From an uncultured Chthonomonas sp. (GTDB lineage Bacteria; Armatimonadota; Chthonomonadetes; Chthonomonadales; CAJBBX01): a stretch of 64,000 bases of DNA. Location of the stretch: positions 1 to 64,000 of the forward strand of contig CAJBBX010000148.1 of assembly GCA_903951425.1 (NCBI GenBank). Direction: 5' to 3'. The position numbers and the translations under genes are program-made. The first letter of the stretch is position 1, and every line of letters starts with the position of its first letter. This document shows positions 43,790 through 47,606 of this stretch, piece by piece. The notes beneath the pieces are model-generated. The model saw only the letters and a program-made list of their open reading frames with translations. It had not been told where the DNA came from and did not search any database.

Positions 43790-43843
43790 AGTGCTGGGGG
43801 CAGCGCGGCGCGGATGGAGTATGCTCCGATCGGGAGGATGGCG

Positions 43844-44381
43844 ATGTTCAGGGAGGAGAAAGCCACGGCCGTTGCAGCGCTTCTGCTCGAATGGGCGGGC
43901 GGAGCCTTGGATGACCTGAAGCTCATGTACCTTGCTGACCGTGATGCGTTTCGCCGCTTTGGAACGACGATCACGGGTGATCGGTACTTCTCCATGAAGA
44001 ACGGCCCGATCCTGAGCGCCACACTGGACCTGATGACCCCGCGGTCACGACGACACGGCCACGGTCTGGCGAGACCACATCGACCTTCCGGCGCGCTACC
44101 AGATCAGGCTGCTGCGGCCGATGGATGCGTCGCCCGTGCTCTCGCGCGCTGAGGTCGCCATTGTGCGGAGCGCCCATGATCCGTACGGCGCCTGGGACGA
44201 GTGGCGTCTGGTGGAGTTCGCCCACAACCTGCCAGAGTACACGCCGACCCCGCATACCTCGATCCCGATCCCGCTTACCGAGGTGCTGAGCGGCCTGGGT
44301 CTCAATGAGAGCGCCATCGCCGGCCGCCTCGCCGCCGACCGGCAGCACGACGCAATGGACCGGCTCCTCGCGTCCGCATAG
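43844..44381 (+). pseudogene. Panacea (DUF4065)-domain antitoxin-like gene, frameshifted
   Basis: The first reading frame gives MFREEKATAVAALLLEWAGG, LKLMYLADRDAFRRFG and ITGDRYFSMKNGPILSATLDLM, the recognisable N-terminal two-thirds of a Panacea antitoxin domain. After the CCCC run at 44037-44040 homology continues in the +1 frame as RGHDDTATVWRDHIDL through EWRLVEFAHNLPEY to the stop at 44379-44381. One extra C in that run explains the shift. GGGAGG lies 6 bases before ATG 43844. In intact systems such antitoxins neutralise an adjacent toxin; here the following gene is also broken. Sequencing error is possible, but two independent shifts in neighbouring genes favour decay. Confidence 0.75.
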
Positions 44382-44877: not shown

Positions 44878-46224
44878 CTACGGACGAACCGAGACCACTC
44901 CTGCTGTCATCTGCTTCTGCACCTCAGCGACGGCTCGCGCCAACTGGGTGTCGTTCTTGGTGTCCTCGAAGTCCTGGTCCAGCCAGAGCTTCGACTGCTC
45001 TACCTCGATGTCGGGCGCGATGCCGCCCGTGTTGAAGATGGGCCGGTGCTCCTCGTCGAACTTGTTGTTGATGTCGCGGCCGCTGGGCGTGAAGTACTTG
45101 GCCGTGGTGAGGCGCAGGGCCGTATCGTTGGCCAGCGGGAAGAGCGTCTGCACCAGGCCCTTGCCAAAAGTGTGCTTGCCCACCAGCGTCCCGGCCTTCG
45201 TGTCCTTGATGGCGCCCGCCACGATCTCGCTGGCGCTGGCGCTGCTCTCGTTGATCAGCACCACGATGGGAATGCCCGAGTACCGCTGGACACGGCGGGT
45301 GCGAATCGCAGCCCGACGGCCGTTCTTCTCCTGCACCAGGACGACGGGGCCAGAGTTCACGAACCGGCTCGCGACCTCAACCGCGGCGGTCAACAGCCCG
45401 CCCGGGTTGAAGCGCAGGTCGAAGACGAGTCCCTTCATGCCCTGCGCCTTCAGGTCCGAGACGGCCTTGTCGAGCTGGACGGCGCTCTTCTCGTTAAACT
45501 CGTTCAGAACGATGTGACCCACCTTCCTGGCCGGGTCCGCCATCTTGCTCGTCACTACCGGCGGCTCGATATGCATGCGTGTCAGGAGGAAGCGGATTGG
45601 CTTGGGAGCGCCGCGGCGGAGCATGGTGATCGTCACCCGGGTTCCCTTGGGCCCCTTGATGAGCTTCACCACGCTGCTGATGTCCATGCCCAGGGTAGGC
45701 GTGGTCTTGATGAGCTTGCCCGTCCTGATATCGTGCGTACCGACGCTGAGGATGGTGTCGCCGGCCTTGACACCGGCCTTGGTGGCCGGGCTGCCCGGCA
45801 AAGGCCGGACCACTCGCACGTCCTTGCCCACAGGCTCCAGTACGGCGCCGATGCCCTCGAAAGAGCCCTGCGTCGTCTGCTGCATCTGCCGCCACTCGTC
45901 CTGGTCCAGAAAGCCGGTGAACGGGTCATTCAGGCTGGCCAGCATGCCCTCGATGGCGGCGTAGGTGAGCTCTTTGGTTTTCTTGGCGTCGATGGCTGCC
46001 GGTGCGTACTCGTGCTTGATGACGTCGAGCGCCTCGGCGTAGGCCGCAAAGGTGGCGTCGGTGTCCTCAGCCGAGGCGGCCTGCACCCCCAGCGAGCGCA
46101 GCACCATATCGACCGGATGGCCTGATCGGCGCATCGCCCTGGGGTTCGGTCCTGAGATGATGCCCAGCAGGAACGCCGCGGATGCGAGCAGGACGACGGG
46201 CAATATGCGGGACCGGATGTTCAT
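44878..46224 (-). CDS. ctpA: C-terminal processing protease (S41, CtpA-like)
   Basis: 448-aa envelope protease. An N-terminal signal anchor (about residues 5-24, RILPVVLLASAAFLLGIISG) precedes the helical region, then a PDZ domain (about 120-205; GSFEGIGAVLEPVGKDVRV, VKAGDTILSVG) and the S41 catalytic core. The catalytic Ser is S330 in NESSASASEI and the Lys is K355 in HTFGKGLVQ, the same 25-residue spacing as in plant D1 processing protease. It trims C termini of exported proteins. ATG 46224 is preferred because AGGAGAG lies 9 bases upstream; ATG 46233 would abut it. The upstream gene on the same strand is a dead paralogue ending 15 bases away, so the two are co-transcribed. Confidence 0.93.
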   Translation of the reverse strand: MNIRSRILPVVLLASAAFLLGIISGPNPRAMRRSGHPVDMVLRSLGVQAASAEDTDATFAAYAEALDVIKHEYAPAAIDAKKTKELTYAAIEGMLASLNDPFTGFLDQDEWRQMQQTTQGSFEGIGAVLEPVGKDVRVVRPLPGSPATKAGVKAGDTILSVGTHDIRTGKLIKTTPTLGMDISSVVKLIKGPKGTRVTITMLRRGAPKPIRFLLTRMHIEPPVVTSKMADPARKVGHIVLNEFNEKSAVQLDKAVSDLKAQGMKGLVFDLRFNPGGLLTAAVEVASRFVNSGPVVLVQEKNGRRAAIRTRRVQRYSGIPIVVLINESSASASEIVAGAIKDTKAGTLVGKHTFGKGLVQTLFPLANDTALRLTTAKYFTPSGRDINNKFDEEHRPIFNTGGIAPDIEVEQSKLWLDQDFEDTKNDTQLARAVAEVQKQMTAGVVSVRP

Positions 46225-46238
46225 GGCTCTCATCTCTC

Positions 46239-47606
46239 CTAGCCCTGAGCCAGCGCGCCGGCAGCGCGCCGAACCGGGTCCTCGCTCTCGTGAACCACTA
46301 CGTCAGGCTTCAGGCCGATACCCTCGAAGGACGCGCCCTTGTCGGTGAGGTACTTGCCCGCCGACACGGTCAACGCGCCGCCTGCTCGTAGCGGCACCAG
46401 CTTCTGGTATGTGCCGTCGCCCATGGAGCGCGACCCCACGAGCTTGGCGCCGCCCTGATCGCGAAGGGCGGACGCTGCCATCTCGGCCAGCCCGGCGGTG
46501 CCGCCGTTGACAACCACGGCGAGGCGCCGCGGCTTGGCGCGCTCGGCAGCGGCCGGCAGCGGCTGCTTGCGGCCCCCTGCGCGAACGACCGAGCCAAGGT
46601 TGCCGCCGTCGGTCAGCAGGCCCACCAGCGTCGCTGCGGCCGCATAGGCCCCCGAGCGCGTGTCCGCCACGGGCCCGCCGGCGTTGTTGCGCAGGTCGAT
46701 GACGACCGGCGCCGTGCCCGCCGCGGACAGGGCCTCAGCCAACTCCTTCTCGGCGCGCTCGTTGAACTGCGTGATCCGCAGGCATGCGACGCCGTCCACG
46801 CGGGTGCCGCTCACCGGGTCCAGTGTGTAGGGGGCGCTGCGGACGGTGACCTTGATCGGCTTCGCTACGCCCGGCCTCTCCAGCGTCAGCTTCACGTCGG
46901 CCGGGTCCGGCGTCATCTTGTTCAGCGGCAGGCCGTTCAGGCGGTCCAGGGCACGCCCGAGCGTCATGCCGTCGGTGAGGCGCTTCGTGGCGTCCTTGAA
47001 GGCCTGGCGGTAGGTGCGGTCGTCCATATCGCGGGTCTGCATGTTGTTCAGGTCGAGGCGCGGGTCGTAGGCGATGACCCAGCGTCCGTCGATCTCGGTC
47101 ACCACGTCGCCGGCGCGTACGCCGGCCACGTCGGCCGGTCCGCCCGGCGCGGGCGCGATGATGCGGAGGCGCCGCTGCTCCACCTCGCCCTTCTTGAACT
47201 TGCCGACCGTGAGGAAGGCTCCGATGCCTTCGAACTCGCCGGAGAGCTGCCGCTGGTAGCGGGCCCACTGCTTGGCGTCGTAAAAGCGCGTGCGGGGATC
47301 ATCCAGTGCGAAGGCCATTGAGCGCACGGCTCCGTCGGCGAGCCTTGCCGAGTCGTCAACCTTGTCGACGTACTCGCTGTAGACGTAGGCCAGCACATCG
47401 CGCAGGGTGTCGGCCGGGTCGCCTGAGTCGGCTTCGTCCGCAAAGGGCGTGCCGGAACCCGGGAGCCCGGCCATGGGCCCTGCCATCTGGGCATTGCCTG
47501 CGAATACGGCGCGGTTGAACCAGCGAATCTGGCGTCCGCCGGCAAAGGCGGCGACGACCAGCACTGTGAGCCATATGGCCAGCGCTATGCGCTTAGTTGT
47601 CCTCAA
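46239..47606 (-). CDS. Catalytically dead S41/CtpA paralogue (pseudoprotease)
   Basis: About 455 aa, with an N-terminal membrane anchor (IALAIWLTVLVVAAFAGG), a PDZ domain (GEFEGIGAFLTVG, VRAGDVVTEIDG) and an S41 core (VVIDLRNNAGG). At the active site NGGTAGLAE replaces the N-x-x-S-A-S-A-S-E motif, putting Gly at the catalytic Ser position. Exactly 25 residues later SMGDGTYQ has Asp in place of the catalytic Lys of FGKG. Both dyad residues are thus lost while the fold motifs stay intact. The TTG start at 47606 is inferred from GAGGG 8 bases upstream and from the anchor that follows. Directly upstream of the active protease, it may regulate or scaffold that enzyme. Confidence 0.82.
   Translation of the reverse strand: MRTTKRIALAIWLTVLVVAAFAGGRQIRWFNRAVFAGNAQMAGPMAGLPGSGTPFADEADSGDPADTLRDVLAYVYSEYVDKVDDSARLADGAVRSMAFALDDPRTRFYDAKQWARYQRQLSGEFEGIGAFLTVGKFKKGEVEQRRLRIIAPAPGGPADVAGVRAGDVVTEIDGRWVIAYDPRLDLNNMQTRDMDDRTYRQAFKDATKRLTDGMTLGRALDRLNGLPLNKMTPDPADVKLTLERPGVAKPIKVTVRSAPYTLDPVSGTRVDGVACLRITQFNERAEKELAEALSAAGTAPVVIDLRNNAGGPVADTRSGAYAAAATLVGLLTDGGNLGSVVRAGGRKQPLPAAAERAKPRRLAVVVNGGTAGLAEMAASALRDQGGAKLVGSRSMGDGTYQKLVPLRAGGALTVSAGKYLTDKGASFEGIGLKPDVVVHESEDPVRRAAGALAQG

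Follow-up and report, generated by a model that had tools for sequence, protein, structure and literature searches.

The CtpA paralog (U) encoded directly upstream of an apparently active CtpA (D) was found, as judged by comparison with its homologs, to have lost its cutting residues long ago, yet to have been preserved since, across one phylum. This long preservation of a dead copy directly before a live CtpA suggests a partner role for it, in feeding or controlling the live protease, and we consider a U:D hetero-complex, in which the two proteins are subunits of one envelope protease, the best explanation and, on balance, a probable one; physical pairing, client capture and the identity of the clients are the steps of this model that we infer. 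The published work searched contained no S41 pseudoprotease and none paired with a CtpA.

Domain composition and catalytic sites of the two proteins

The window, i.e. the whole stretch of 64,000 nucleotides that was analyzed, carries both genes on its minus strand, U first and then D, with the following features:

44878 to 46224, minus strand: D, CtpA-type S41 C-terminal processing protease, predicted active, 448 aa (NCBIfam prc, intact Ser/Lys/Gln, AlphaFold)
45160 to 45162, minus strand: predicted catalytic Lys355 of D (AAG; alignment)
45235 to 45237, minus strand: predicted catalytic Ser330 of D (AGC; alignment)
46234 to 46239, minus strand: GGAGAG, putative ribosome-binding site for D that overlaps the stop codon of U (sequence)
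46239 to 47606, minus strand: U, S41 pseudoprotease, dead CtpA paralog, 455 aa, TTG start (Pfam S41, catalytic-site alignment, AlphaFold)
46416 to 46418, minus strand: Asp397 of U (GAC), aligned with the catalytic Lys (124 U proteins aligned with 128 D proteins)
46491 to 46493, minus strand: Gly372 of U (GGG), aligned with the catalytic Ser (same alignment)
46959 to 47075, minus strand: U-specific PDZ insert, residues about 178 to 216, with a predicted extra helix at 196 to 212 (segment lengths; model helices)
47217 to 47228, minus strand: conserved PDZ carboxylate-binding loop GIGA of U, residues 127 to 130 (equivalent of the CtpB Gly113-Ala116 loop, PMC3808539)
47244 to 47417, minus strand: N-terminal dimerization-region helices of U, residues 64 to 121 (model helices 64 to 78, 86 to 100 and 111 to 121)
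47541 to 47603, minus strand: membrane anchor helix of U, residues 2 to 22 (hydrophobic stretch; helix 2 to 22 in the model)

Judged by its sequence, D is an S41 C-terminal processing peptidase (CTP) with the fold, a PDZ domain, the Ser-Lys dyad and an NCBIfam prc (TIGR00225) score of 315.2 bits, above the cut-off of 218.6; its Pfam Peptidase_S41 (PF03572) match reaches 180.2 bits against a cut-off of 24, and its AlphaFold model (pLDDT 87.9) matches best the structures of Helicobacter pylori CtpA (HpCtpA) and Bacillus subtilis CtpB. U likewise has the S41 fold and the Pfam domains (Peptidase_S41 with 96.4 bits, PDZ_6 and a weak CtpB_N-like match, nothing else), but it lacks the Ser-Lys dyad and stays below the prc cut-off with 144.8 bits; its model has a mean pLDDT of 79, and the nearest solved folds are D1P, CtpA and CtpB (Z 25-29). 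The preliminary description had placed Ser and Lys 25 residues apart in the downstream protein and Gly and Asp at exactly those positions in the upstream one, and both readings hold: Ser330 and Lys355 in D are matched by Gly372 and Asp397 in U, which are also 25 residues apart. That the upstream protein keeps its anchor, PDZ and core motifs was borne out as well by Pfam, the model helices and the carboxylate loop. For the active-site acid His84/85 of CtpA, D proteins have Y, F or H, unrelated to the presence of U.

The GxGIG loop and the N-terminal helices belong to the more conserved regions of U, the helices with a JS conservation of 0.396 against a whole-protein mean of 0.345, and the loop glycines being retained in 122-123 of the 124 U homologs. 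The PDZ domain of U, in turn, is longer, the segment D167-E237 having a median of 65 aa in U vs 26 in D and outgroup CtpAs, i.e. about 39 extra residues. Two CtpA-conserved arginines, at D positions 190 and 216, are missing from U, of which Arg216 of D is invariant in CtpAs, so that PDZ binding by U may differ. U lacks the Arg/Lys in the 'RG' motif of its PDZ domain; going by residue numbering and offset, this residue would be the counterpart of Arg168 of CtpB, the substrate sensor linking the PDZ domain to the active site (PMC3808539).

U and D look co-transcribed, given the gap of 14 bases between them and the GGAGAG in the end of U that would serve the ATG of D. An alternative ATG for D at 46233 is possible too; the one at 46224 is better spaced.

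Conservation of the dyad loss across homologs

Homologs were searched first in 61 genomes, made up of that of the window plus 60 relatives, and afterwards in 237 genomes of the phylum, and U was found widely. The 124 U and 128 D proteins that were compared come from 27 families, of which 22 have U and five contributed D-type loci only. Ser and Lys occur together in none of the 124 U homologs. The Ser position is occupied by N (46), G (46), R (15), S (11), K (3) or D (3), and the Lys position by Asp or Glu in 100 proteins (D 87, E 13) and by other residues in 24, with whole U lineages carrying L, N, R, S, K, Q, T, M or H. Close to the Ser position, Thr at -2 (123/124) and Glu at +3 (119/124) are nearly invariant in U. 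All 128 D homologs have the Ser, and 127 have both Lys and Gln, the remaining one being unread there.

Since U homologs with an intact dyad would have pointed to a recent loss in this strain, their absence among the 124 read from 22 families, together with the single clade described below, speaks for an ancient one. The conservation of the pair with the same substitutions, which had also been raised, stands in part: the pair is strictly co-encoded and the loss is conserved, but the substitutions vary (Ser to N, G, R, K or D; Lys mostly to D or E). In families f8 and f15 (L050, L194, L195, L196, L197, L052, L206, L214 and L233), most U proteins keep the Ser and have Asp in place of the Lys, and here Lys-to-Asp may represent the first step of loss.

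Origin, genomic linkage and selection

A tree was computed for 160 proteins after masking of the catalytic columns. All 68 U proteins included form one clade in it (SH-aLRT 100), separate from D and from the CtpAs of other phyla; as the tree was a quick one and some of its branches are long, this single U clade is its firm part. The D proteins of U-bearing genomes cluster as well (SH-aLRT 89, one f4 group excepted), and D-only lineages fall outside, a topology that fits one tandem duplication inside the phylum after some lineages had branched off.

In 122 out of 122 loci that have both genes, U directly precedes D in the same orientation; in further loci, D stands alone in eight and U alone in two, the latter near contig ends. 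Both genes are present in two genomes of 1.5 Mb. Three genomes of U-bearing families (G004, G005 and G112) are without U and without a close D; as these are draft genomes, the absence of the genes is not certain. In three close pairs, omega was 0.10, 0.034 and 0.079 for U and 0.067, 0.029 and 0.069 for D; U is thus under purifying selection, with an omega of about 0.03-0.10, near that of D. That U is a decaying pseudogene, or lost its residues recently in this strain, as its missing catalytic residues might suggest, is ruled out by these omega values, the 124 open homologs and the one ancient clade.

Two loci deviate from the simple pair. At L061:3469-4962 (G021), a stop codon, possibly a sequencing error, splits D into two ORFs and U reaches the contig end, and in another genome the pair is followed by a more distant S41 ORF (L265:4450-5817), the third one there.

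In a scan outside the phylum, all matches among those listed were CtpAs, and each that could be read at the dyad had it intact. Tandem ctpA pairs were observed in another phylum (L309, L154 and L113, loci named Eremiobacteria and 'Armatimonadetes' in NCBI). In L309 and L154, Ser and Lys are present in both copies, which could serve as an active-active comparison for the active-dead pair; in L113, a stop codon ends the upstream ctpA copy before the catalytic region. Across 148 genomes of the phylum of L113, U is essentially absent, the one marginal match being an active tandem pair.

Gene neighborhood

The genomic context gives a hint to the function of the pair. In several families, the order is FtsE-type ATPase, FtsX, M23 peptidase (with a PcsB-type coiled coil), U, ctpA and polysaccharide deacetylase, which points to cell-wall hydrolase control, and CTPs of other bacteria degrade peptidoglycan hydrolases, M23 types included (PMC8764530). 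Where a genome has no U, ctpA directly follows the M23 gene, indicating that U was inserted into an FtsEX-M23-CtpA cluster. In the window itself, the ftsEX-M23 neighbors are gone and rpiB lies divergently upstream. An ORF of 112 aa at 43814 to 44152 of the window matches the SocA/Panacea antitoxin domain over no more than positions 2-42 (of 113) and is possibly a truncated antitoxin. No gene for a TPR partner was found next to the U-D pair.

A proposed two-subunit envelope protease and its alternatives

We propose that an ancestral ctpA behind ftsE-ftsX-M23 hydrolase genes was duplicated once in tandem, and that the copy at the 5' side persisted as a non-catalytic subunit after losing its Ser and Lys. 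U and D would most likely pair via the N-terminal helix motif that dimerizes known CTPs. U would then supply a second PDZ domain, whose conserved carboxylate-binding loop could capture or present the C-terminus of clients, which are probably envelope proteins such as peptidoglycan hydrolases, and/or U might stay at rest within the dimer and leave the cutting to D. Pseudomonas aeruginosa CtpA (PaCtpA) and HpCtpA form dimers through their N-terminal regions with one active subunit at a time, and M23 hydrolases are among their clients (PMC11021448, PMC12749690, PMC8764530). A dead and a live gene side by side, both with dimerization helices, fit a fixed division of labor.

Among single-chain models, that of U agrees better with PaCtpA and HpCtpA chains in the resting state than with the others, and that of D fits active-state CtpB better than resting-state CtpB. 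These preferences lean weakly towards a resting U and an active D, conformation choice having many causes. A mean-field DCA of 120 pairs (Neff 84) with a reduced alphabet, a test that lacked power, gave a top-50 inter-protein mean of 0.259 vs 0.203-0.216 for within-family shuffles, which also break the shared phylogeny, and its top intra-protein pairs are not contact-like. Several points speak against the two-subunit model: U might dimerize with itself, its PDZ domain may bind differently for lack of the two arginines, the window has no ftsEX-M23 genes beside the pair, and a permanent resting partner is not a general need, as the related CtpB lets both of its subunits work.

The more specific proposition of an obligate U:D heterodimer, in which evolution has fixed the one-active-subunit asymmetry, with D permanently cutting and U permanently at rest and gripping clients, in a complex linked to the cell-wall remodeling by FtsEX-M23 over a large part of the phylum, is put forward tentatively, as a possibility that we hold to fall short of probable.

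Unlikely, in our view, is that U alone or as a homodimer is a PDZ scaffold or client adaptor which delivers to D without a mixed CTP dimer. U keeps the carboxylate loop, anchor and dimerization helices that such a role would draw on, CTP adaptors are known (NlpI for Prc, and LbcA), and a functional link alone would suffice for co-encoding, but for a strictly paired paralog that keeps the CTP fold in full, subunit pairing is the readier explanation. We regard it as less probable again that U is mainly an inhibitor or brake of D, acting through inactive mixed oligomers or through the insert blocking the PDZ domain and tunnel; the dead site, the lost sensor Arg and the extra PDZ helix would agree with this, as would near-equal amounts of U and D if they are co-translated, yet with a constitutive inhibitor encoded in an operon at a fixed 1:1 ratio, little active enzyme would remain. 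A different chemistry, with the near-invariant Thr370 (Ser-2 position) and Asp397 as a new active site, draws on the prevalence of Thr at the one position and of Asp or Glu at the other, but is very improbable, because whole U lineages carry quite different residues at the Lys position and nearly all active CTPs have Ser/Thr at -2 as well, for which reason Thr370 is probably structural.

Comparison with known systems and implications

The proposed U:D complex can be set beside several known systems. With PaCtpA (which works with LbcA) and HpCtpA (S41A), the pair shares the fold, the anchor, the N-terminal dimerization region and the PDZ domain, and D also the Ser-Lys dyad. In these enzymes, however, both subunits come from one gene and either can be active, which U, from its residues, presumably never can be. 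B. subtilis CtpB (4c2c and related entries) is a ring dimer held by N- and C-terminal motifs, with a PDZ gate and the Arg168 sensor (PMC3808539), at whose position D has Arg or Lys. It is a homodimer with two working sites, from which U differs in having no dyad, no sensor Arg and the enlarged PDZ domain. From the TPR adaptors NlpI and LbcA, U differs in being without TPR repeats (Pfam).

For the principle of a dead subunit, ClpR in Clp proteases is the nearest precedent. The ClpP3/ClpR protease of cyanobacteria and plastids has in its complex a long-conserved paralog without catalytic residues (PMC6508832). Going by its genes, U is ClpR-like in being homologous to the active subunit, in its conserved dyad loss and in being co-encoded and co-inherited. 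The Clp core, however, belongs to an unrelated family, the ATP-dependent S14 in cytosol or stroma, and its complex has been proven biochemically. The vertebrate retinoid carrier IRBP (retinol-binding protein 3), to which U has a sequence match, has an S41-related fold in a non-protease role, but has no active protease partner and is not a protease subunit.

For PaCtpA and HpCtpA, it is an open question whether cutting by one subunit of the CTP dimer requires that the other be inactive. If these roles are split between two genes in the U-D pair, its natural fixed subunits would allow a direct test. If true, our model would add an S41 pseudoprotease for bacteria, beside the FtsEX-M23 system that controls peptidoglycan cleavage.
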